From a bacterium (GTDB lineage Bacteria > Pseudomonadota > Alphaproteobacteria > Rhodobacterales > Rhodobacteraceae), in NCBI GenBank assembly GCA_016124195.1, contig WGOE01000005.1, forward strand, positions 62,001-126,000: a stretch of 64,000 nucleotides of DNA, given 5' to 3'. Below are positions 23,209 to 35,537 of this stretch, piece by piece. Under the pieces are notes generated by a model. That model searched no databases and had not been told where the DNA came from. It saw only the letters and a program-made list of their open reading frames with translations. The position numbers and the translations under genes are program-made. Position 1 is the first letter of the stretch, and every line of letters starts with the position of its first letter.

Positions 23209-25317
23209 TTGCCGCATGTTGACCGGGATGCATCGCCCGACGCAGAGCTGACAACAACCAAAGGCCTGAGTTCGTTGACCGAGCCGCCGGAACCGGAAAT
23301 CGATGTCAATCTTGGTGCGGGACCCGAGGACCGTCCCCATGTGACGCTGAAGGATCTGGGGGCCTATCGCGACAGCCAGTTTCCGGTCTGGGTGCTGGAT
23401 GTCGATCACTTCCGGATCGTCTGGGCCAATGACGCGGCGGTGGACCTGTGGGCCGCGGGCTCGGCGGCGGAGCTGATGCAACGGGATCTGTCGCTCGACA
23501 TGACCTCGACCATCCAGACCAGGCTGCGCAACTATACGGCCGACCTGTGGAAGGGCGCGCATTTCGACGAAGAATGGACGCTGTTTCCGCGCGGCATGCC
23601 GCGGACCGTGCTGGGGCGCCTGCGTGGCTGCCTGCTGGGCGACGGCCGCATGGCCATCCTGTGCGAAGGCCAGGTCATCAAGCCGAATGACGCGAACATG
23701 CTGCGCGCCTCGCAGGCGCTGCTGTACACGACGATGATGGTCACGACCTATGCCGAAGGCGGCCAGCTCACCTATGCCAATCCAGCCGCGCGCCGAGCCT
23801 TCGCGGGCTTTGACCTGTCAGCCGCGTCCCGGTTTCAGAATCCCGAACTGCGCGCCGTCCTGAAGGCCGCCCCCGAAGCCGCGCGCGAAGGCATCTGGCG
23901 CAGCGCGGTGATCACGACGCAAGGCCCGCGGATCCACGAGGTCGAGGTGCGGCAGAGTTTTGACCCTGTCGAGGGCCGCAGGAATTTCCTGCTCACCGAA
24001 CTGGACGTCACGGCCCAAGAGGCGGTGGCGCACGAATTGTCCAACCTCGCGATGCGGGATGGGCTGACCGGGCTGCGCAACCGGGCCCATCTGACCGGGG
24101 CCGCGCCAGATTTCATCGCCAACGCCGCGCAGGCCGGGCAGACGGCTGGCCTTTTCCTGCTGGACGTGGACCGCTTCAAGCTGGTCAACGACAGCCTCGG
24201 CCATGCCGCGGGCGACACGCTGTTGCAGGAAATCAGCCGGCGCCTGACCGAGGCCCTGCCCGGCACCGTGCTGCTGGCGCGGCTTGGCGGTGACGAATTC
24301 TGCTGCCTTCTGACCACCGGCGGCGGGGAAAAGGTGCTGGCCAGCATCGCCAGCCATCTGCTGCGCGACATGCGCCGGCCCCTGCAGATCGAGGGCAACG
24401 ACCTCAGCGTTTCGGTCAGCATCGGGCTCAGCATCGCCGACAGCGGGCAGACCACGTTCCCCGACCTGTTGCACAAGGCCGACCTTGCGCTGTTCGACGC
24501 CAAGGCCAAGGGCGGCAACCGGCTGCGGATGTTCCGCCCCGAACTGGCCGAACGCAACAACCGCTTCCTGCAACTGGACGCCGAATTGCGCGATGCGCTG
24601 CGGCTGGGCCGGCTGGAGCTGTACTATCAGCCGCGCATCTCGTTTCAGACCGGCAAGATCGTCGCGGCCGAGGCGCTGATCCGGCTGAACTCTCCCACCG
24701 GGTCGCAGGTGTTGCCCGGCGAGTTCATCCCGATCGCCGAGGCAACCGGCCGCATCGCCGCCATCGGGCGCTGGGTCCTGGCCGAGGCCACGCGGCATCT
24801 GGTGCGGCTGCGCGGCATCGGCCATGCCATCAATCTGTCGGTCAATGTCTCGCCCAAGCAATTCGCCGATCCGTCCTTTCTGGCGCTGCTGCGGCAGGTG
24901 CGGCCCGCCATCGAAGAAGTCAGCGGCGAGATCGAGCTTGAGATCACCGAGAACGTCCTGATCGAGAACGACCAGCGGCTGCAGCGGGTGCTGGCGCAGA
25001 TCTCACGCCTGGGCTACCGGCTGGCGATCGACGATTTCGGCACGGCCTATTCCAATCTGGCCAGCCTGACGCGCTATCCGATCTCGTGCCTCAAGGTCGA
25101 CCGCACCCTGGTGGCGCACAAGGATTTCCGCCTGATCCTGACCGGCGTGATGACTCTGGCGCGGGCCTATGGCGCCAAGATCGTGGCCGAGGGTGTGGAA
25201 ACCACCGAACAGCACGCCTGGCTGGCCGAGAACCTGTGCGACGAATATCAGGGCTACCTGTTTTCGGGCCCGGTGCCCTTTGCTGAATTGCAGCGCATGG
25301 TCAACTCCGGGCAATAG
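23209..25317 (+). CDS. PAS-GGDEF-EAL cyclic-di-GMP protein
   Basis: About 702 residues. Two PAS-like domains (roughly 50-150 and 170-265), then a diguanylate cyclase domain with intact GGDEF at 360-364, then a phosphodiesterase domain with intact EAL at 488-490, LEITEN, DDFGTAYSN, KVDRTLV and AEGVET. No RxxD inhibitory site precedes GGDEF. Both active sites look usable, so net output (making or breaking c-di-GMP) must depend on the sensor part. There is no membrane segment. The start is uncertain: this TTG at 23209 gives the longest form, a TTG at 23275 or GTG at 23341 are alternatives. The gene is monocistronic and ends 9 bases from convergent galE. Confidence 0.9.
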   Translation: MPHVDRDASPDAELTTTKGLSSLTEPPEPEIDVNLGAGPEDRPHVTLKDLGAYRDSQFPVWVLDVDHFRIVWANDAAVDLWAAGSAAELMQRDLSLDMTSTIQTRLRNYTADLWKGAHFDEEWTLFPRGMPRTVLGRLRGCLLGDGRMAILCEGQVIKPNDANMLRASQALLYTTMMVTTYAEGGQLTYANPAARRAFAGFDLSAASRFQNPELRAVLKAAPEAAREGIWRSAVITTQGPRIHEVEVRQSFDPVEGRRNFLLTELDVTAQEAVAHELSNLAMRDGLTGLRNRAHLTGAAPDFIANAAQAGQTAGLFLLDVDRFKLVNDSLGHAAGDTLLQEISRRLTEALPGTVLLARLGGDEFCCLLTTGGGEKVLASIASHLLRDMRRPLQIEGNDLSVSVSIGLSIADSGQTTFPDLLHKADLALFDAKAKGGNRLRMFRPELAERNNRFLQLDAELRDALRLGRLELYYQPRISFQTGKIVAAEALIRLNSPTGSQVLPGEFIPIAEATGRIAAIGRWVLAEATRHLVRLRGIGHAINLSVNVSPKQFADPSFLALLRQVRPAIEEVSGEIELEITENVLIENDQRLQRVLAQISRLGYRLAIDDFGTAYSNLASLTRYPISCLKVDRTLVAHKDFRLILTGVMTLARAYGAKIVAEGVETTEQHAWLAENLCDEYQGYLFSGPVPFAELQRMVNSGQ

Positions 25318-25326
25318 CGGCTGCGT

Positions 25327-26310
25327 TCAGGCCTCGAACCGGGGCTTGCGGCTCCAGAGCAAGGCGTCGCCGATCATCTTGGTCAGGGTCGAACGGTCGG
25401 GCGTCCAGCCCAGTTCGCTGACGGCGCGGTGCGAACCCGACACCAGCGAGGTCGCATCGCCGGCCCGGCGCTGGCCCTCGATGATGGGAACCTCGCGGTT
25501 GGTGACGATGCGGCTGGCCTCGATCACCTCGCGCACCGAAAAGCCGCGGCCCGAGCCGAGGCAGAACACCCGGCTGCCCTTGCCATCCATCAGCCAGCGC
25601 AGGCCCAGCACATGGGCATCAACCAGATCCGAGACATGGACGTAATCGCGGATGCAGGTGCCGTCGGGCGTGTTGTAATCCGATCCGAACACTGTCAGCG
25701 CCGGGCGCTTGCCCTCGATGGCATCCAGCATCAGGGGGATCAGGTGGGTTTCGGGCACATGCTGTTCGCCCACCTCGCCTTCGGGATCGGCGCCAGCCAC
25801 GTTGAAATAGCGGAAGATCACCGAATTGAGGCCCGAGCTTTTCTGGAAATCGCGCAGCATCATCTCGATGGCGAGTTTCGATCCGCCATAGGCGTTGATC
25901 GGGGTCTGCGGCGTGTCCTCGTCCAGCGCCACGCCGTCCAACTCGCCATAGGTCGCACAGGTCGAGGAAAAGACGAAGTTGCGCACGCCGGCGGCCAGCG
26001 TCGCCTCGATCAGGTTGAGCGAGCCGTTGACGTTGGTGCGCCAGTATTTGCCCGGGTTGGTCATCGATTCGCCGACCAGCGACAGGGCGGCGAAGTGCAT
26101 GACGGCAACCGGCTGATACTGCGCGAAACAGGCATCCAGCGCAGCCCGATCCATCAGATCGCCCTTGAACAGCGGGCCGAACTTGACCGCCTGCCCCCAG
26201 CCGGTGGTCAGGTTGTCAAAAGCCACGGGAATGAAGCCGGCACGCGACAGGGCCTTGCAGGCATGGGCGCCGATATAGCCCGCTCCGCCGGTTACAATCA
26301 CGTGCTGCAT
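25327..26310 (-). CDS. galE: UDP-glucose 4-epimerase
   Basis: A 327-residue extended short-chain dehydrogenase with NAD motif TGGAGYIG at residues 7-14, the active-site Ser in SSTCATYG, and Tyr/Lys in NAYGGSK (YxxxK). It interconverts UDP-glucose and UDP-galactose. The ATG at 26308-26310 follows GGAG by 7 bases; a TTG two codons upstream is less likely. It lies downstream of kpsT in the same direction, 129 bases away, and with ugd on the other side it can supply sugar nucleotides for the capsule exported by the KpsMTE system. The DTPQTPINAYG and IIEGQRRAGD blocks are standard for GalE. Confidence 0.93.
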   Translation of the reverse strand: MQHVIVTGGAGYIGAHACKALSRAGFIPVAFDNLTTGWGQAVKFGPLFKGDLMDRAALDACFAQYQPVAVMHFAALSLVGESMTNPGKYWRTNVNGSLNLIEATLAAGVRNFVFSSTCATYGELDGVALDEDTPQTPINAYGGSKLAIEMMLRDFQKSSGLNSVIFRYFNVAGADPEGEVGEQHVPETHLIPLMLDAIEGKRPALTVFGSDYNTPDGTCIRDYVHVSDLVDAHVLGLRWLMDGKGSRVFCLGSGRGFSVREVIEASRIVTNREVPIIEGQRRAGDATSLVSGSHRAVSELGWTPDRSTLTKMIGDALLWSRKPRFEA

Positions 26311-26439
26311 CGCCAAACTCCGTATCGGGCATCAAAGTCGCCCGCGGTTACTGCCGCAGCCTTGCCCAGTTGTCGAGTCCCCCTGCGCAGGCCCCGGCAG
26401 GGGCCCGCCGCAGCGCAGCACGATGGCGTTCCGTGATGA

Positions 26440-27132
26440 TTATTCCAGCAGTTCGGCCGCGGTGTTCGTGATGCCGGCGCCGCGCAGATTGGCGTTGTGC
26501 ACTTCCAGCGCCTCTTCGATATCGTCGTAGAAGGTGATCGAGCCGTTTTCCAGCACAGCCCCGCTGTCGCACATCGACCGCATCAGCCCGTCGGAATGCG
26601 ACACCATGATCAGGCCGGACGAGGCCATCCGATCCTCGAACACCTTCTTGCTTTTGCCGCGGAAGGCGGCGTCGCCGGTCGCCGTCACCTCGTCGATCAG
26701 ATAGGTGTCGAAATGAATGCCCATCGACATGCCGAAGTTCAGCCGCGCCCGCATCCCCGAGGAATAGGTCCAGACCGGTTCGTGGTAATTCATCCCCAGT
26801 TCGGCAAAGTCATCGACGAAGTCGAGAAGCTCGTCCGTGTCCACCCCATAGACGCGCCCGATGAACTTGACGTTCTGCGCGCCGGTCAATTCGGTCTGGA
26901 TGCAGCCGGTCAACCCGATCGGCCAGGACATGTTGCCCGTCAGCCGGATGCGGCCGCGGTCGGGGTTGATCGACCCCGCGATCATGCTGAGCATGGTCGA
27001 CTTGCCCGCGCCGTTGCGCCCCATCAGCGCCACGCGGGCGCCATCAGGGATAAAGGCGTTGAGGTTGCGGGCAATGTATTTGGGATGCCCGCGATACCAA
27101 TAGGCCTTGGTCAGGTTCTCGATCTCGATCAT
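26440..27132 (-). CDS. kpsT: capsular polysaccharide export ATPase KpsT
   Basis: A 230-residue ATPase of the KpsT/RfbE polysaccharide exporter group: Walker A GRNGAGKST at 38-46, signature YSSGMRARLNF, Walker B YLIDEV and switch VSHS. KpsT energises KpsM to move capsule chains across the inner membrane. The gene follows kpsE by 21 bases; its permease kpsM lies on the other strand upstream of kpsE. The stretch FHFDTYLIDEV... is typical, and residue patterns such as NVKFIGRVYG distinguish it from importer ATPases. Confidence 0.93.
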   Translation of the reverse strand: MIEIENLTKAYWYRGHPKYIARNLNAFIPDGARVALMGRNGAGKSTMLSMIAGSINPDRGRIRLTGNMSWPIGLTGCIQTELTGAQNVKFIGRVYGVDTDELLDFVDDFAELGMNYHEPVWTYSSGMRARLNFGMSMGIHFDTYLIDEVTATGDAAFRGKSKKVFEDRMASSGLIMVSHSDGLMRSMCDSGAVLENGSITFYDDIEEALEVHNANLRGAGITNTAAELLE

Positions 27133-27153: not shown

Positions 27154-28875
27154 TCAGCGGCGGTCGCGCAGCGCGTAATAGATCATCGACAGCGAAGCCC
27201 AGATCAGGAAACCGATCAGCCCCACCATGAAGATCCACAGCGGCCGGTTCGGCGCCTCGGACGATTGCGCGAGCGTCGGCGAAACGAAGGTCGCCAGATA
27301 CCGGGTCTTGTGCTGCGCGTCGTTGACCGCCTGATCATAGGCGCCAAGTGCCGTCAGATAGGCCTTCTGTGCGAAGTCGCTCGCCATCTGCAGGCTTTGG
27401 TAATCGGCCACCAGATTGGCATAGCCGGGCGCCTTGGTGTCTGACAGGCCGCCGACCTTGGATTTCTCTTCGTCGATGCGTTTCTGGATCACGTCGATCC
27501 GGCGGTTGAGCAGGGCAATCCGCGGATCGTTGTCGGGCACCGTGCCGTTGAGCATGTCAAGGTCGACCTCGGCCGAAGCAAGCTGCTGGATCAACGAGTT
27601 GACCACCAGGCCCGCGCCCGCCAACTGGTCGGTCGGATCGACGATGTTGTTCTTGATCCGATAGCTCGTCAGCGCCTTTTGCGCCGCCATCATGTCAGAC
27701 TGCGCCTTGTCCAGCGCCTCCTTGCCATAGCGGGTCGCATCCTGCTGGGCGGTCACCGACAGTTCATTGATGATCGAGGCCGATTCGTCCAGAACGACCG
27801 AGGCGATCTTCTGGGCATCCTGGGGATCGAAGGCATAGACCTTGACCGTCATCAGACCGGTGGAGGGGTCGTAGGACGGCACGACCATTTTGGACCAATA
27901 GGACACCAGATCCTCGATCGTGCCGTCGCGCGGGAAGCTCAGCAACGGATCATTGGTCGGCTTGGAATAGAGCGCGCGCAGGTCGACCTTCTTGTCGACC
28001 CGGCTGACCAGTTCCTGGCTCGCGATGAACTGATAAAGGATATCCATGTCGCCGGATGACGAACCGCCAAGGCCCCCCAAGGAGCCAAGGAACGAGAAGG
28101 TCGATGGCGCATCCTCGGTCCGGCTGCCGAAACCGATATCGCTTTCATATTGATCGGCGGCGCGGGTGTACATGTACCAGGCGGTCACCGCCGCCGGCAG
28201 CGCGACCATCAGCATGAACGCGGCGACCAGTCCCCAGTGGCGCTGGCGCATGCGGGCCGATTTCACGGTCGGGGCGGGCACGTAATTGGCAAAGGGATCC
28301 TCGCGCAGCGGTTTGGCCGGCGTGGCGGCAGGCTTGGGCACAGGCGCCCGGGCCGGCGCGCGCTTTGGCGCCTCGGCCGGGGCGTCAGGAGCACGCGCCT
28401 CCGCGCCGCCGGTCCGGGCGGGTTCGGGACGTGCAGAAGGGGTCCCGGCGGTCTCGGGTGCGGGTGCAGCGGCGGCATCGGCCTCGCGGGCCAGACGCTC
28501 TTCCTCCGCCGCCCGGCGCTGGCGCATCAGCAGGGCCGGACGACCCACTGTGCCGGGCCCCGGGTGCGGTGCTGCGTTCGGCGCCGCATCCTGGCCGGCA
28601 GCGGCCAGCGCGCGGGCCCGCGGCGCGCCGGCAACCGGGCCGGCTGCGCGCATGCCGGGCGCGGCCTTGCGGCCTGCAACCGGGCGCAACTGCGTCACGC
28701 TTTCGGCGGGAACGACCGTCTCTTCGGGGCTGGCAGGCGTCACGGGCAAGGCCGCACCGCCCCCGCCCGCGTCCGAAGTTTCGGCGACGGGAGCACCGGC
28801 ACCCGCTTCGCGATTGGTTGACGACTCGTCCGGCGCGACTGTTTCGGGCTTTGCAGAAGGGGGGGTCACGGTCAT
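27154..28875 (-). CDS. kpsE: capsule export inner-membrane protein KpsE/CtrB-like, with long N-terminal extension
   Basis: A 573-residue polysaccharide co-polymerase type protein. Two membrane segments frame a large periplasmic part: one at about 214-236 (HWGLVAAFMLMVALPA), one near the C-terminus (WIFMVGLIGFLIW). The periplasmic region has the family's coiled-coil-prone stretches (DKAQSDMMAAQKAL, RRIDVIQKRIDEEKSK) and the hallmark ending SSEAPNRP before the last segment. Unusual is the first 210 residues: a cytoplasmic tail very rich in Ala, Pro and charged residues, low complexity, absent from typical KpsE of about 380 residues. KpsE links the KpsMT exporter to the outer-membrane KpsD, which is not in this window. 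The ATG at 28873-28875 is the first after the divergent promoter region. Confidence 0.88.
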   Translation of the reverse strand: MTVTPPSAKPETVAPDESSTNREAGAGAPVAETSDAGGGGAALPVTPASPEETVVPAESVTQLRPVAGRKAAPGMRAAGPVAGAPRARALAAAGQDAAPNAAPHPGPGTVGRPALLMRQRRAAEEERLAREADAAAAPAPETAGTPSARPEPARTGGAEARAPDAPAEAPKRAPARAPVPKPAATPAKPLREDPFANYVPAPTVKSARMRQRHWGLVAAFMLMVALPAAVTAWYMYTRAADQYESDIGFGSRTEDAPSTFSFLGSLGGLGGSSSGDMDILYQFIASQELVSRVDKKVDLRALYSKPTNDPLLSFPRDGTIEDLVSYWSKMVVPSYDPSTGLMTVKVYAFDPQDAQKIASVVLDESASIINELSVTAQQDATRYGKEALDKAQSDMMAAQKALTSYRIKNNIVDPTDQLAGAGLVVNSLIQQLASAEVDLDMLNGTVPDNDPRIALLNRRIDVIQKRIDEEKSKVGGLSDTKAPGYANLVADYQSLQMASDFAQKAYLTALGAYDQAVNDAQHKTRYLATFVSPTLAQSSEAPNRPLWIFMVGLIGFLIWASLSMIYYALRDRR

Positions 28876-29008
28876 GTTCCAATTTCGCGCAACGGTTTGC
28901 GCATGACTTACATTCTTGATAAAGATACCGCAAAACGGCCTTGGGCCACAAGCACCGACTCTTTCAGACGGTGAAAAGCAGCCGTTCCGATGCGGGAATA
29001 CAGCGAAA

Positions 29009-29851
29009 ATGCAAGAAATTAGCATGAATTCTGGCGATTCCGCCAATCCTGCGATCCGCCCCTATGTGCCGCAAAAGCCGCGCATCCGCCGGTTTCGCAC
29101 GTTGCGGGTGGTCGCGGCGCTCATCATGCGCGAAACCGGATCGCGCGAGACTCGCACCTCGCTGGGATTCCTGTGGAACATGATCGACCCGGTCGCCTCG
29201 GTCTTCGTGCTGACCGTGGCGTTCAGCCTGTTCGCAAAGAACCCGCCCCTTGGCACCAATTTTCCGCTGTTCTACATCACCGGCGTGCTGCCTTTCACGA
29301 TGTACGGCCAAGTCGAAAACCGGGTATCCGGGTCCATCCGCTTTTCGCGGCCGCTGCTGGGCTTTCCAGCGGTGACTGTGCTGGACGCGCTGCTGGCGCG
29401 CTTCCTGTTGAACGTATTCACCAATGTTGTGGTCTTCGTGACGCTCGCCTCGATCATAATCATGCAGTACCACTTGCGCGTGACCATCGACGCGCGCGCG
29501 GTGGTGCTGAGCCTTGCGATGGCCGCGGCCCTGGGTCTGGGCATAGGCACCCTGAATTCGGTGCTCTATCTTGCATCGCCCACCTATCAAAGCGTCTGGG
29601 GCATCATCAATCGGCCGCAGATGCTGGTATCGGGCGTTATTTTCCTTCTCAACGATATGCCCGACTTCGTCTTCAAATACCTGAAATGGAACCCGGTCGC
29701 GCATGTGATCGCCGAGATGCGGCATGGCTTTTACCCGACCTACGATTCCTCTTTCGTCAACCCGACCTATGTCTTCATCGTGGCCGGTACGGCGTTCGTG
29801 CTGGGCCTTGTGGGCCTGCACAGCTATGTCTTTGACGCGCTTGAAAAATAG
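29009..29851 (+). CDS. kpsM: capsular polysaccharide export permease KpsM
   Basis: About 280 residues with six membrane segments and the ABC-2 exporter pattern LIMRETGSRETRTSLGFLWNMIDP, ILLN... and WNPVAHVIAEMRHGFY, which marks KpsM-type permeases. It pairs with KpsT. It is transcribed divergently from kpsE, sharing a 133-base region (28876-29008) that must hold both promoters. Starts at 29009 and 29024 are both plausible; I choose the first because GGAA lies 8 bases before it. The gene ends 9 bases from the convergent ugd gene. Confidence 0.9.
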   Translation: MQEISMNSGDSANPAIRPYVPQKPRIRRFRTLRVVAALIMRETGSRETRTSLGFLWNMIDPVASVFVLTVAFSLFAKNPPLGTNFPLFYITGVLPFTMYGQVENRVSGSIRFSRPLLGFPAVTVLDALLARFLLNVFTNVVVFVTLASIIIMQYHLRVTIDARAVVLSLAMAAALGLGIGTLNSVLYLASPTYQSVWGIINRPQMLVSGVIFLLNDMPDFVFKYLKWNPVAHVIAEMRHGFYPTYDSSFVNPTYVFIVAGTAFVLGLVGLHSYVFDALEK

Positions 29852-29860
29852 GCCTTTGGT

Positions 29861-31165
29861 CTAACGGCCGACGCCGAGGTATTTTTCAAAGCCGGACTCA
29901 AGCACCTCTTCGGCCGAATAGACGTTGCGCAGATCGGCCATGCGGGCCGAGGTCATCTTGCGTGCCATCCGCTCGAGGTCGAGCGCGCGGAATTCGTTCC
30001 ATTCGGTCAGGATAACAACGGCATCGGCCGATTGGGTGGCCTGATAGGCGTTATCGACCCAGCGCACGCCGGGCAGCAGCGCCTCGCCCTCGCGGCGGCC
30101 CTGCGGATCGGCGACGCGGACCTTGACGCCGGCCCCGACCAGCGCGGGGATGATGGTCAGGCTGGGGGCATCGCGCATGTCGTCGGTGTTGGGCTTGAAG
30201 GTCACGCCGAGGATGGCGATGGTCTTGCCGTTCAACTGCCCGTCACACAGATCGACGATCTTGTCGAGCATCCGGCGCTTGATCTCTTCGTTGACCTTGA
30301 TGACGGTCTCGGTGATCTGCATCGGCACCGCGTGATCCTGGCCGATCCGGGCCAGGGCCTTGGTATCCTTGGGAAAACACGAACCGCCGTAGCCCGGCCC
30401 CGCATGCAGGAACTTGTTGCCGATCCGCCCGTCGAGCCCCATGCCCTTGGCGACATCCTTGATATCGGCGCCCACCCTTTCGCACAGCGAGGCGATTTCG
30501 TTGATGAAGGTGATCTTGGTCGCCAGAAAGGCATTGGCCGCGTATTTGATCATCTCGGCCGATTCCAGCCCGGTGAAGACCACGGGGAATTCACGCAGGA
30601 ACAGCGGGCGGTAGATATCGGCCATCACCTTGCGGGCCTTGGCGGATTCGACGCCGACCACCACACGGTCGGGCCGCATGAAATCGTCGATGGCAGCCCC
30701 TTCGCGCAGGAATTCGGGGTTGGAGGCCACATCGAAACTGGCCTCCGGGTTGGCCGCGCGGACCGCCTCGCCCACCTTGCGGTTGGTGCCGACGGGAACG
30801 GTGGATTTGGTCACAACGACCGCGTAACCGGTCAGCGCAGCGCCGATCTCGGCCGCGGCCTGCATCACGTAGGTCAGGTCGGCATGGCCATCGCCGCGCC
30901 GCGTCGGCGTGCCCACCGCGATGAAGACCGCATCGGCTCCGGCGACCGCCTCGGCGAGGTCGAGCGTGAAGGACAGCCGCCCCGCCGCCACGTTCTTGGC
31001 CATCAGATCCTCGAGCCCGGGCTCAAAGATCGGAACCTCGCCAGCCTGGAGGCGGGCGATCTTGTCGGGGTTCTTGTCGACGCAGACAACCTCGTGGCCG
31101 AAATCCGAAAAACATACACCGGAGACAAGGCCCACATAGCCCGTGCCGATCATCGCAATCTTCAT
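29861..31165 (-). CDS. ugd: UDP-glucose 6-dehydrogenase
   Basis: A 434-residue nucleotide-sugar dehydrogenase: NAD motif GTGYVGLVSG at 8-17, STVPVGT, SNPEFLREG, KYAANAFLATKI, catalytic Cys263 in YGGSCFPKD, and GVTFKPNTDDMRDAPS. It oxidises UDP-glucose to UDP-glucuronate in two steps, a standard capsule precursor. GDP-mannose dehydrogenase relatives look similar; the combination of motifs and the neighbourhood with galE and kps favours Ugd. The ATG at 31163-31165 is clear; the upstream extension to 31201 is not needed. Confidence 0.93.
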   Translation of the reverse strand: MKIAMIGTGYVGLVSGVCFSDFGHEVVCVDKNPDKIARLQAGEVPIFEPGLEDLMAKNVAAGRLSFTLDLAEAVAGADAVFIAVGTPTRRGDGHADLTYVMQAAAEIGAALTGYAVVVTKSTVPVGTNRKVGEAVRAANPEASFDVASNPEFLREGAAIDDFMRPDRVVVGVESAKARKVMADIYRPLFLREFPVVFTGLESAEMIKYAANAFLATKITFINEIASLCERVGADIKDVAKGMGLDGRIGNKFLHAGPGYGGSCFPKDTKALARIGQDHAVPMQITETVIKVNEEIKRRMLDKIVDLCDGQLNGKTIAILGVTFKPNTDDMRDAPSLTIIPALVGAGVKVRVADPQGRREGEALLPGVRWVDNAYQATQSADAVVILTEWNEFRALDLERMARKMTSARMADLRNVYSAEEVLESGFEKYLGVGR

Positions 31166-31242
31166 GATACCGCCTGTTCCGGGCCTTGCCCGGCCAATCA
31201 ATCTGCTTCTGTCTAGAAAGCCAAGGCTGTCGTGTCAAATGC

Positions 31243-31289: not shown

Positions 31290-34200
31290 TCAATAATCCG
31301 TTTCGACATAGATCCGGTTGAGGCCAAGCTGCACTGAATTGACCAGGGTCAGCGCCGCGTTGCTGGCCAGGACTCCGGCTGTCAGCAGCGCCGTACTGAC
31401 CGGAAGGTTGGCGGTGGCACTGCCCGACACCTCGACCCCGGCGTTGAAGTCCACGATGCGCCAGCCGATCTTGGTGTCGTTCGGCGCGCAGAACATGTAA
31501 AGGTCGTAGCCCTTGCCCGAGGTGATCGTCAGGCCGGTGGCGGCCTTGGTCGCGCCGGTCGTGTCGCGGGTCAGGAAGCTGATCGCCCCGTTGTCGCCGG
31601 AATCGACGGCAAACCCGCAGACATTGTTGGTGGCCGAGGGCTCGCCCGTCACGACGGCGGTGGAGCCGTGCATGCCGCCGAAGAAGCGGCCGCCATTGGT
31701 CCAGATGTCAAGACCGCAGCGGGCGAAGAAAAAGAACCCCCCCTGCCCGGCCACCGATCCGCGCATGAACATCGCCTCGGTGTTGCGCTGGCCAAGGACC
31801 TGGTTGGTCGTGGTGACCACATTGGCCCAGCGCCCCCGCTTGATGCCGGTGTACAGGCTCGTCGTCGTGGGCAGGCCAGTGGCATAGGTGCCCGCGCCCG
31901 CGCCTGTGGTGCCCAGCCAGACGCCCGCTGTGGCGCCGGTCGGGTTCCACATCGTGATGTTGTTCTGCCAGAAGGCGTTCTGCATCGGCGTGTCGAGCCC
32001 GGCCGGACCCTTGATCTTCGGCACCATGCGGCCGGCGATCGACTTGGAATACTGACGCAGGACACCAGGAGCCGGGGCCGCGGGCTCGGTCGTGATGCCC
32101 GTCAGCTCGACCCCGGTATCCGTGCCCGCAAGGCCAAGCGTGTTGGTGGCCTTGATCCAGACGAAGTCGGCATCGCCACCCAGCGCGCCCGCATCGTTGA
32201 ACTGGATCTGCGTGCTGGCCCCGCCCGGCACACCGCCTCCGGCCGGCGCGGCCCAGGACCCATCCGCCCGCAGAAAGGCCGCGGTGCCGCCGCCCGAGGC
32301 CGGCACCACGCCCTTGGTCGAACTGGTAAAGGAATCCAGCATCGCCGTCACCTGCGTGCCCGTCAGGTCGCGGCCCGGACCGAAACTACCCGAATTGTTG
32401 CCCTTCAAGGTGTTGGAGGCCATCTGGTCGATCACGTTGACGCTGCTGTCGGCGGTAATCAGCGGCGTGCCGCCGACCATGGTGTTGCCGGTCACCGTGT
32501 TGCCGGTGCAGCCTGCGTCGATCCAGACCGCGCCATATTCGACGATGCCCGTACCGGCCGCGTTGCCGATCGTGTCGAAGACGTTGGCCGTGATCACATG
32601 CGCGAAGTTGTTGCCATCCGCGCCGGTGCTGACGCCCTTCATCCAGACCCCGACCTTGGCGTCGGCGATATAGTTGCTTTCCACCGTGCAGCCGATCGAA
32701 TCCTGAATGTTGTTGACGAAACAGATCGCCGCCCGGTTGCGGTTGTTCAGGGTGCTGACGTTGGTGTGCACGCCGATGATCGTGTTCTTGACGATCCGCG
32801 CTCCGACCGAGCCATCGACGCCAATGCCGCCCACCCCGCCGCCACCCACCGCCAGATAGCCCGTGCCGGCATCGAGGTCGGGAAACTGGTTGGTGTTGGT
32901 CATCGCCACGTTCAGAACCGTGTTGCCCGAGACGACAGAATAGTCGCACCGGTCTATGGTGATGGCCTCGGACCAGATGTTCTGCGCCACACAGCGTTGA
33001 ATGCGCGAATGAGGCACCTGCTTCTGGCTGAAGGCGGTGGAACCGGCATGGCTCGCCCGGCAATTCTCGAAATAGCAGCCGATGGGAAAGAAGGTTGGCG
33101 TGCCGAAGCCCGCGTCATCCGAGGTCTTGCCCGTGCTGTCGATCCCGTAGGTCGTATTGCCGCCGCCGATCATCTGGAACGGACGATCCGGACTGTTGAT
33201 GCACTCGCAATCCTCGATGCCCGAGAACTGGTCTCCCAGAAAGAAGCCGATGCCCGAATAGCCCGCGCAATCCAGAAGAAGATTGCGGATGCGGTTGTTG
33301 GCGCCGCCCCAGAACTTGATCGCCGCCGCCGCCTGATTGCCGGCCCGCACGATCCGCGTGGCGTTGCCTTCGCCTTGCAGCGTGACCTTGTTCAGGCCGT
33401 ACTTGATCATCTGCCCCGCCCAGCGATAGGTGCCGGCCGGCATCAACGCCAATCCGCCGCCATTGGCGTTGACATAGTCGATCATCGCCGAAACGGCGGT
33501 AATGGCCGAGACGACCCCGGTGTTGTCGGCATTCCAGTGCATCGCAGTCGCCACGTCATGCGGCACCCAGCCCGGCAGATCCGAAATGGCCGTGCCGCTG
33601 CCGATGTAGCGATAGGAATAGCCGGCGGCCTTCATCACAAGCCCGGTCGATGGCACACGCCCCGCCGCCCAGGACACGAAAGAGGCGCGGGTCGAGAAAT
33701 CCTGCCGCTCCAGCGAGGTGCGGGCCGCATTCACATTGACGCTGCCGATCAGGTTGCGGCCGACGGTGCTGAGCGAGGTCAGCGCCGCCACCGAAGGTGC
33801 CGTGAAATAGGGGATGCTGTTGGCGACCGGCGTCAGGGCGTCCAGCGCGTCGATCGCCGCAGGAATCCCGCTGAGCGCGGCATAGGACCCAGCCCCACCG
33901 CTGCCAGCGGGCGGCGCGGCCCAGGTGCCGTCCGCCCGCAGGAAATTCGTGCTGCCGCCGCCGCTGGCCGGCACGATGCCCGGCGTCAGCGGCGCAAAGA
34001 CGGTGTTCAGCGCCAAAGTCCCGTCCGCGTCCGGCAGGCCAATCGTGCGTGCACTGCCCGAGGTCAAGCCGGACAGATCGAATTTCGCCTGTTTTGAGGG
34101 ATCGGCATTGTCGAGCAGAGTGAACTGCGAATCGGTCGCAGAGACGGCTCCGGCGAAGGTCACGCCAGCGGCAAATGTCTTGGCCCCGCCGATGGTCTGC

Positions 34201-35360
34201 GTGCTCGACAGATCCACCGCATCGGTGATGCCAAAGCCCGCCACGGTCGTGGGCTTGCCGGTCAGTCCGCTCCAATCCGTCGTCGAATTGGCAATCTCGA
34301 CATAGACGGTGCCGGACCAGCGGTAGGTCTTGTTGGTGTCCAGCGTGACATAGATCTTGCCCGTGGCACCCGTGGTCGGAAAGGCCGCCAGATTGGCATA
34401 TTCCAGCACCGAATCGACATAAGAAGGCAGTTGCGAGGCCGGCACCTTGCCCGAGCCGTCCAGCCCGGCATAGCCGTTGGCGATCCCCTTGTTGTCGGTC
34501 GTCTCGGCGGACAGGGCTGCCCTCTGATCGGCCGCGGTCGCGGCCGTCAGAAGGGCGCGACCAGCGGCGGAGCTGTCGGTGATCTGGGTCGAGACGACCT
34601 CGTAAAGGTCGACATTCACGCCCGCCTGCCGCCCACGAAGCTTGCCCGAGCTTGCGTTGTACCAGATGTCGCCGTTCTGCGGCGTCACCGGGTCGCCGGC
34701 ATCCAGCGTGACATTGATGCCATTGGGCGCCAGAACCCGCCCCGTCGCAGCCTCGATCAACAGGCCAGTCAGGAAGGTCGTACCATCCGGGCTGACCTTG
34801 ACGGCGAAATCGTTGCCGCCGACGTTGCCCATCTCGGCCCGGCCCGAATAGCCGGTCTGGAACAGAAGGCTCGCGGTATCTTCGGTCGTGGCCTTGTTGA
34901 TCTTCAACTGATGGCCCGCACCCGCGTTGGTCAACAGCGTCGCATCGGCCGAGACGGTCAGACGGTTGGTGTCGTCCGGCGTGGCCGAGATGCCAAGCGC
35001 CGCCACCAATTCTGGCCGGTCGGCCGAGGTCGTCCAGGCCGCGCCGTTGAAGACCGCCTCGGTCTGTTCCTCCTCGACCCAGACGCGCCAGCCGGTCTTG
35101 GGCGTATAGACGTCCCAATAGACACCGCTGTAGACCGCCACGGCCTGATCGTCGCCCAGCCAGTCCCCGGTGGCGCCATCGGCGACGATGTAGCTGTCGC
35201 CCGCCACAGCCCCCACCGGCGGCGCGGTCAGCGCGCGGCTTTTGACCGAGGTCTGGACCAACACATCCAGGGCCATCATGGCCGCATTCACTGTCACATG
35301 CTTTTGCGCCTGCGCCGGCTGAATGAGGGGCAGCAACTGCAGCGTCGTCTTGTTCGTCAT
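31290..35360 (-). CDS. DUF2793 / beta-helix phage-like spike or fibre protein
   Basis: A 1356-residue modular protein without a signal peptide. Residues 1-90 form a DUF2793-like domain (PAQAQKHVTVNAAM, then GDSYIVADGATGDWLG). After tail-fibre-like segments (PQNGDIWYNASSG) comes a repeat GIVPASGGGSTNFLRADGTW near 460. A right-handed beta-helix of pectate-lyase type spans about 625-985 (NNRIRNLLLDC, SRIQRCVAQ, NSVVSGNTV-like turns), then a second copy of the repeat (GVVPASGGGTAAFLRADGSW) near 1017, and a Gly/Thr-rich C-terminal fold. The ATG follows GGAGG by 5 bases. No other phage genes surround it. DUF2793 proteins occur in alphaproteobacterial phages and gene transfer agents, so a particle spike that binds capsule is the best idea, not a certainty. 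Confidence 0.8.
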   Translation of the reverse strand: MTNKTTLQLLPLIQPAQAQKHVTVNAAMMALDVLVQTSVKSRALTAPPVGAVAGDSYIVADGATGDWLGDDQAVAVYSGVYWDVYTPKTGWRVWVEEEQTEAVFNGAAWTTSADRPELVAALGISATPDDTNRLTVSADATLLTNAGAGHQLKINKATTEDTASLLFQTGYSGRAEMGNVGGNDFAVKVSPDGTTFLTGLLIEAATGRVLAPNGINVTLDAGDPVTPQNGDIWYNASSGKLRGRQAGVNVDLYEVVSTQITDSSAAGRALLTAATAADQRAALSAETTDNKGIANGYAGLDGSGKVPASQLPSYVDSVLEYANLAAFPTTGATGKIYVTLDTNKTYRWSGTVYVEIANSTTDWSGLTGKPTTVAGFGITDAVDLSSTQTIGGAKTFAAGVTFAGAVSATDSQFTLLDNADPSKQAKFDLSGLTSGSARTIGLPDADGTLALNTVFAPLTPGIVPASGGGSTNFLRADGTWAAPPAGSGGAGSYAALSGIPAAIDALDALTPVANSIPYFTAPSVAALTSLSTVGRNLIGSVNVNAARTSLERQDFSTRASFVSWAAGRVPSTGLVMKAAGYSYRYIGSGTAISDLPGWVPHDVATAMHWNADNTGVVSAITAVSAMIDYVNANGGGLALMPAGTYRWAGQMIKYGLNKVTLQGEGNATRIVRAGNQAAAAIKFWGGANNRIRNLLLDCAGYSGIGFFLGDQFSGIEDCECINSPDRPFQMIGGGNTTYGIDSTGKTSDDAGFGTPTFFPIGCYFENCRASHAGSTAFSQKQVPHSRIQRCVAQNIWSEAITIDRCDYSVVSGNTVLNVAMTNTNQFPDLDAGTGYLAVGGGGVGGIGVDGSVGARIVKNTIIGVHTNVSTLNNRNRAAICFVNNIQDSIGCTVESNYIADAKVGVWMKGVSTGADGNNFAHVITANVFDTIGNAAGTGIVEYGAVWIDAGCTGNTVTGNTMVGGTPLITADSSVNVIDQMASNTLKGNNSGSFGPGRDLTGTQVTAMLDSFTSSTKGVVPASGGGTAAFLRADGSWAAPAGGGVPGGASTQIQFNDAGALGGDADFVWIKATNTLGLAGTDTGVELTGITTEPAAPAPGVLRQYSKSIAGRMVPKIKGPAGLDTPMQNAFWQNNITMWNPTGATAGVWLGTTGAGAGTYATGLPTTTSLYTGIKRGRWANVVTTTNQVLGQRNTEAMFMRGSVAGQGGFFFFARCGLDIWTNGGRFFGGMHGSTAVVTGEPSATNNVCGFAVDSGDNGAISFLTRDTTGATKAATGLTITSGKGYDLYMFCAPNDTKIGWRIVDFNAGVEVSGSATANLPVSTALLTAGVLASNAALTLVNSVQLGLNRIYVETDY

Positions 35361-35537
35361 GGGAACCTCCGCGGGGATCGCTTTGACCCGCGAAGCTAGG
35401 AAGACAGGCTGAATTAGTGGTAACCGATGCGCACGCTCCCCCGGCCCGCCGCGCAACACCCGCTGGCGCGACCGTTGCACAACGTTCAAGCATGACGGCC
35501 AAATCTTTCGGATTGCTTTACGTCGCGGCGCCCGGCC

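Follow-up and report, generated by a model that had tools for sequence, protein, structure and literature searches.

A long DUF2793 protein encoded in a capsule locus, probable tail fibre of a resident gene transfer agent

Gene transfer agents (GTAs) occur widely among the alphaproteobacteria of marine and fresh waters, and which cells receive their DNA is a long-open question. In the GTA of Rhodobacter capsulatus (RcGTA), the tail fibre Rcc00171 begins with a DUF2793 domain (PMC8265664) and binds capsule (PMC10218006), and DUF2793 co-evolves with GTA genes (PMC10883770). In the roseophage vB_DshS-R4C, an N-terminal extension of the tail fibre binds the fibre-binding domain of the protein known as megatron (PMC10276861). 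The head spikes of RcGTA consist of Rcc01079, with a jelly-roll base, and Rcc01080, with an I-A-L-G-L-G-L-G-L start (PMC7296036). Here we describe a gene of a Pseudorhodobacter-like alphaproteobacterium that lies within a 64,000-nucleotide stretch of contig WGOE01000005.1 (hereafter, the window) and encodes a protein of 1356 amino acids (aa) beside capsule export genes. We consider this protein, with a probability of about 0.85, to be the tail fibre (receptor-binding protein) of the resident RcGTA-type GTA because the GTA cluster of this genome is complete except for a fibre, the gene is the sole one encoding DUF2793, its product has a putative megatron-binding end, its promoter shares an element with that of the GTA cluster, and it is conserved throughout the genus.

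A GTA cluster without a fibre and a single DUF2793 gene

The genome contains one gp12-type gene and one megatron gene (g15), located on a contig other than that of the window. Over the 31 kb of that contig that were read, the GTA cluster is complete, with g1 (an open reading frame (ORF) of 108 aa), terL, portal, protease, capsid, head-tail and tail genes, the tape measure, and g12-g15; of these, g12 and g15 have profile confirmation, and the other genes are named by their order and look. No fibre gene was found in this cluster, including the gap between g15 and cysE, which starts 30 bp after g15, whereas other genera encode a 233-aa DUF2793 fibre exactly between these two genes. Within the 4.26 Mb of the genome, DUF2793 is encoded by the window gene alone, and neither the DUF2793 search of the genome nor inspection of the g15-cysE interval revealed a second recognisable fibre for the resident megatron. 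Likewise, a DUF2793 gene follows the GTA-type megatron end in none of 11 cases in the genus and in none of 30 in genera with an ectopic fibre (that is, one with no GTA gene nearby), the next gene being cysE in 9 and 28 of them, respectively. In all seven DUF2793 phages inspected, the DUF2793 gene comes directly after a megatron-like gene.

The window protein is encoded by an intact minus-strand ORF, without internal stop, and, as the earlier note on this DNA had proposed, carries DUF2793 near its N-terminus (MTNKTTLQLLPLIQPAQAQKH), with a match of 90 bits to PF10983 for a cut-off of 27. The N-terminus can also be aligned with residues 6-124 of the R4C fibre (8gtc_S, E value 2.5e-8), and DUF2793 together with the residues preceding it is predicted to bind the megatron fibre-binding domain. 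Roseophage DUF2793 tail fibres are annotated as ‘ribonuclease III’ (KP162168.1, HM151342.1), a name that has been carried into the PDB (8gtc chain S).

The promoters of the window gene and of the GTA cluster have an element in common, whose core, GAGCGTGCGC, is found at positions 35429-35438, 69-78 bases before the ATG of the fibre gene. The pattern GAGCGTRCGCWTMRG has exactly two matches in the genome, although, as it was written from these same two sites, only a matrix test based on other genera counts. When a 44-base matrix built from 22 other genera was scanned over about 115 kb of this genome, the two best scores fell on the GTA promoter (21.6) and the fibre promoter (19.8), in that order, and the third site scored 13.9. 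The test was not wholly blind, since the core on which the training sites were aligned had been chosen after viewing promoters, although the k-mers GTTAAC and CGTACG of this core had been listed before the GTA promoter was read. On 648 kb of random regions, two sites reached 16. The degenerate core [GC]CG[CT][AG]CG[CG] occurs upstream of 23 of 51 ectopic fibres compared with 24 of 172 control promoters (p = 8e-6), and in 12 of 14 promoters of the genus, where its distance to the ATG is nearly always 74-77 bases. GafA of R. capsulatus binds at a site 50-100 bases upstream of tspA (PMC13420450), and late GTA loci have been reported to contain putative CtrA and GafA sites (PMC9638019); the element of the fibre promoter may likewise be a GafA site.

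A DUF2793 gene is present in all 16 genomes of the genus, and the order acyltransferase-lysR-lysE-fibre-ugd-kpsM-kpsE-kpsT-galE is kept in most of the species with readable loci, lysR not being found in several of them. The relatives share 47-76% identity with the window protein in the N-terminal region and mostly 61-70% in the beta-helix. The ratio of nonsynonymous to synonymous substitution rates (dN/dS) is 0.11-0.22 over residues 1-280 and 0.16-0.40 over the remainder of the protein, which indicates purifying selection on the gene in the genus.

Fibre settings and surface-polysaccharide loci across the family

We collected DUF2793 regions from the family, taking one genome for each of the other genera; the first 20 regions were hand-picked for a mix and are no fair sample of proportions. 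Besides prophages, the regions show two settings: in-cluster fibres, between g15 and cysE (41 loci, median 233 aa, length nearly constant), and ectopic ones (52 loci, median 376 aa, range 159-637, some of them cut by contig ends), with significantly different lengths (p = 4e-15). Among the 75 genera with a single DUF2793 copy taken regardless of setting, 42 have it in ectopic and 33 in in-cluster position. The ectopic set comprises 54 genomes, of which 52 encode a GTA-type megatron (50 of 52 if only the ectopic genomes proper are counted); among 54 genomes lacking DUF2793 the number is 29 (p = 2e-7). The outcomes that the earlier note would have held against a GTA fibre, closest relatives limited to prophage fibres or a lack of co-occurrence with GTA clusters, were not observed. 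In a megatron tree, in-cluster and ectopic genomes are intermixed and imply at least 10 changes of setting, which therefore changed repeatedly. Several IMG/VR ‘viral’ contigs carrying a 233-aa DUF2793 gene (L033-L042) look like pieces of GTA clusters mistaken for viruses.

The ectopic fibres are strongly associated with genes for surface polysaccharides. Five families fixed from the window (galE, kpsT, kpsE, kpsM, and ugd) were searched within about 9 kb and were found at 24 of 52 ectopic loci versus 1 of 36 random 18-kb regions of the same contigs (p = 3e-6). Using 15 families, ten of which were drawn from ectopic loci, never scored in their own locus, the figures within the same distance were 41 of 51 ectopic loci versus 1 of 36 random regions (p = 7e-14), and two or more families were found at 32 ectopic loci and in 1 random region; the sole scoring random region is on the contig of an ectopic fibre. 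Among the 128 proteins encoded by the three nearest genes, Pfam detected Epimerase (17), Polysacc_synt_2 (13), nucleotidyl transferase (5), glycosyltransferase family 2 (5), Wzz (3), and UDPG_MGDP_dh (3), none of which appears among the families with at least two members listed for 127 random-region proteins. Proteins with RTX calcium-binding repeats also recur within 9 kb of ectopic fibres (L123:2045-4627 and relatives, 18 loci), and are found among the random-region proteins as well (3 of 127). Rcc00280, which acts as a repressor of RcGTA in R. capsulatus, is an RTX homologue.

Domain architecture, tip exchange and neighbouring genes

Along its length (Table 1), the window protein contains further fibre modules detected with PHROGs, one of them at about residues 283-367. 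The module spanning residues 283-404 shares 46-68% identity with phages of Gordonia, Rhodococcus, Planktothrix, and gut hosts and with crAss-like phages, and is an unusually mobile fibre piece. The two repeats seen in the earlier note are real, the motif P-A-S-G-G-G-x3-F-L-R-A-D-G-x-W having exactly two copies in the protein, and its central beta-helix holds as a prediction: the AlphaFold2 model of this region (core predicted local distance difference test (pLDDT) values of 70-87, whole-model mean 54) is a right-handed beta-helix similar to AlgE6 (Z score 28.9 over 293 residues, root-mean-square deviation 2.8), the lyase RbmB (27.7), and the Sf6 tailspike (26.6). We predict an AlgE-like polysaccharide epimerase/lyase fold for it, a fold likeness that is by itself no proof of activity. 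By contrast, the ‘Gly/Thr-rich end’ described previously is instead a folded domain (residues about 1049-1356) with phage relatives at 37-75% identity. Its model (mean pLDDT 58, best stretch about 80) resembles legume lectins and glucanases of concanavalin fold (Z score about 13), and the last 190 residues are predicted to be lectin-like.

Table 1. Features of the fibre locus in the window (positions in the window)
Feature	Position	Strand	Basis or remark
Promoter element common to the fibre and GTA cluster promoters	35401..35444	minus	44-base matrix match
Probable tail fibre gene, whole coding sequence with stop, 1356 aa	31290..35360	minus	ATG at 35360; kept in the genus
Conserved N-terminal anchor region, residues 1-286	34503..35360	minus	63-72% identity to named genus relatives
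DUF2793 domain, residues 24-109	35034..35291	minus	Pfam PF10983, E value 8e-26
Mobile fibre module, residues about 283-404	34149..34514	minus	PHROG 15439/3018; common to many unrelated phages
Junction repeat 1, PASGGGSTNFLRADGTW, residues 464-480	33921..33971	minus	Motif search
Predicted beta-helix domain with short N-terminal part, residues 531-1016	32313..33770	minus	63-70% identity in six genus relatives
Junction repeat 2, PASGGGTAAFLRADGSW, residues 1020-1036	32253..32303	minus	Motif search; tip replacement adjoins this repeat
Tip, residues 1049-1356	31293..32216	minus	63-75% identity to Flavobacterium phage 11b and IMG/VR proteins
ugd, UDP-glucose dehydrogenase, next gene downstream of the fibre	29861..31201	minus	Pfam UDPG_MGDP_dh
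kpsM-like capsule export permease	28916..29851	plus	ABC2_membrane; order kept; true start probably further in
kpsE-like export protein	27154..29046	minus	Position, kept order; ORF start probably too far upstream
kpsT-like export ATPase	26440..27132	minus	ABC_tran; order kept
galE-like UDP-sugar epimerase	25327..26316	minus	Pfam Epimerase; order kept

Ten species of the genus share one tip (35-83% identity among them), and the window species and the one represented by genome G077 carry others, which are 30% identical to each other. The closest relatives of the window tip are the phage and viral-contig proteins indicated in Table 1, Flavobacterium phage 11b infecting hosts of another phylum; proteins about 26-35% identical to this tip, many of them DUF2793 fibres, occur in 36 of the 395 family genomes that were sampled. 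These phage-like identities, together with the position of the change beside the second junction repeat, indicate that the tip has been exchanged with phages. For the beta-helix, a single pattern scan found no relatives in viral contigs, which is no proof of their absence. Besides its stand-alone long fibre, G077 encodes another DUF2793 fibre as part of a prophage whose baseplate is GTA-like (L051, G077:C83:28700-43069).

All genes flanking the window gene are host genes, with ugd, kpsM, kpsE, kpsT, and galE on one side, and lysE, lysR, and an acyltransferase gene, these three named by the look of their sequences, on the other. This agrees with the position directly after ugd and beside kpsE/kpsM, and with the lack of terminase, capsid, and tail genes in the neighbourhood, that had been reported from the sequence, even if the kpsE-like ORF has no Pfam match and owes its name to its position and to the earlier note. 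ugd shows 86-90% identity in sister species, where its position is unchanged. A gene encoding a GGDEF/EAL protein of cyclic di-GMP metabolism (23209-25317) directly adjoins the galE-kps block.

Function of the fibre, alternatives and comparison with known systems

If the window protein is the fibre of the resident GTA, its N-terminal end (the DUF2793 domain and the residues before it) would trimerise and plug into the fibre-binding domain of the megatron g15, as suggested by homologues with known structures, and the shared promoter element suggests that it would be switched on together with the GTA cluster. Judging from the predicted folds, the long arm, with a beta-helix like those of tailspikes and polysaccharide-active enzymes and a lectin-like tip, might allow the particle to grip, and perhaps trim, the surface polysaccharide of recipient cells. 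The tip is replaceable, being phage-like here and of another kind in most sister species, with the change beside the repeated junction motif. Ectopic fibres usually lie in surface-polysaccharide loci, and fibre genes and the genes for their likely targets would thereby travel together.

Several observations weigh against this interpretation. The element in the GTA promoter is inverted and lies 166 bases from g1 instead of about 75, and the mean confidence of the two AlphaFold2 models is low (54 and 58). A megatron is also present in 29 of the 54 genomes lacking DUF2793, which means that the fibre can be absent or unrecognised. Two species of the genus have kept the fibre gene next to lysE but have lost the ugd and kps genes beside it, so that the linkage is not obligatory; the genus members in which no cysE was found behind the GTA megatron are these same two species (L221, L222; L233, L234). 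Finally, in an N-terminal tree that is weak, as it is based on about 110 columns and was read without support values, the ectopic fibres are nearer to prophage and phage ones and are not nested within the in-cluster GTA fibres. They are therefore probably phage-derived replacements and not moved copies, and a simple relocation of the in-cluster fibre is disfavoured, within the limits of this tree.

Among functions other than that of a GTA tail fibre, a stand-alone secreted or detachable polysaccharide-active protein for biofilm or capsule remodelling, similar to TspA, appears improbable. It would agree with the predicted fold, which is that of polysaccharide-active enzymes, and TspA of RcGTA is itself a beta-helix biofilm enzyme (PMC13420450); however, the window protein has a DUF2793 end of the megatron-binding type where the loosely bound TspA, encoded beside lysS, has a carbohydrate-binding beta-sandwich (PMC13420450), and without the window gene this genome would have no GTA fibre recognised by our searches. 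A tail fibre of a remnant or active prophage unconnected with the GTA is more improbable still: even though the modules have phage fibres as their nearest relatives, there are no phage genes around and no second megatron in the genome, the promoter element is shared with the GTA, and the gene occupies the same locus with an intact frame under purifying selection in the genus. We rejected the prophage remnant on this conservation of the locus and the absence of nearby phage genes. The earlier note had suggested a head spike or a tail fibre of the resident GTA. The tail fibre is strongly supported, whereas the head spike, despite the R. capsulatus head-spike genes adjoining capsule genes (PMC10218006), has a negligible probability and was rejected on the N-terminal sequence, which shows the DUF2793 fibre end instead of the I-A-L-G-L-G-L-G-L capsid plug of GhsB (PMC7296036), GTA head spikes being other proteins.

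It is plausible that the adjacent capsule is the target of the fibre, which fits both the capsule binding by the RcGTA fibre (PMC10218006) and the recurrent linkage in other genera. That this linkage serves the matching of receptor and ligand is a good hypothesis, which we advance tentatively. In its broader form, the fibre of about half of the GTA-bearing Rhodobacteraceae genera may have been placed repeatedly in the locus of the polysaccharide that it recognises, giving a linked recognition cassette that steers DNA to cells with the same coat in a greenbeard-like, kin-directed manner; we regard this as possible, at somewhat less than even odds. If it is true, whoever inherits or receives a coat also obtains the fibre targeting that coat. 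The main rival of receptor-ligand matching is that the window protein is a GTA fibre with an incidental location, polysaccharide loci being recombination hot spots for incoming genes where phage fibre genes often land. The affinity of ectopic N-termini to phage and prophage ones and the phage-derived tip speak for such an origin, but the place is stable through the genus, the megatron tree implies repeated changes of setting, and polysaccharide loci surround about 80% of the ectopic fibres versus 3% of random regions. An incidental location is, in our opinion, a serious contender that falls short of being probable.

A domesticated particle pays off most when it reaches relatives, and a tail fibre with switchable tips encoded in a polysaccharide locus makes the idea that GTAs serve kin genetically testable. 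The arrangement may keep the docking tool and its target together, and a candidate cis-element ties the scattered GTA genes to each other. Annotators who miss the fibre of a GTA are thereby directed to polysaccharide loci.

Some elements of this picture are already known, namely the DUF2793 GTA tail fibre, the scattered GTA loci, the capsule as receptor, and the adjacency of head-spike and capsule genes in R. capsulatus. As far as the searched literature shows (subscription papers being mostly outside it), the location of the tail fibre in surface-polysaccharide loci, seen in about half of the genera sampled, the two fibre length classes, and the shared promoter element are new, as is a GTA fibre of 1000-1500 aa with a predicted beta-helix and an exchanged, putatively lectin-like tip. 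Rcc00171 of R. capsulatus (371 aa) resembles the window protein in its N-terminal DUF2793, its location outside the main GTA cluster, and, if the adjacent capsule is indeed the target, its capsule binding (PMC8265664, PMC7296036, PMC10218006). The window protein differs in its 1356 aa, with an added mobile module, a predicted beta-helix, and a phage-derived, putatively lectin-like tip, and its gene sits inside a capsule-export locus, Rcc00171 being compared here apart from its own locus. The fibre of vB_DshS-R4C (8gtc chain S, ‘Ribonuclease III’) is similar in its N-terminal 120 residues but is a phage fibre of 230 aa that binds the megatron and has a lectin-like foot (PMC10276861) and, unlike the window protein, no beta-helix. 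The in-cluster GTA fibres of other Rhodobacteraceae (233 aa) share the DUF2793 anchor, the single copy per genome, and the GTA-bearing genome; in contrast with the window gene, they have a near-fixed length, lie inside the GTA cluster, and form a separate branch of the N-terminal tree. TspA (Rcc02623), the detachable tailspike of RcGTA, is a polysaccharide-active beta-helix protein, ectopic and controlled by GafA (PMC13420450), and the window protein shares the predicted beta-helix; TspA has an N-terminal beta-sandwich instead of DUF2793, is loosely bound to the baseplate and tail tube, and is encoded beside lysS (PMC13420450), whereas the neighbours of the window gene are ugd and the gene of a LysE-type exporter. 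The closest precedent for the linkage itself is provided by the head-spike genes rcc01079/01080, adjacent to the capsule genes rcc01081-01086, where a GTA receptor-binding gene is linked to those for the polysaccharide that serves as its receptor (PMC10218006), although their products are other proteins at the other end of the particle and are known from one species.

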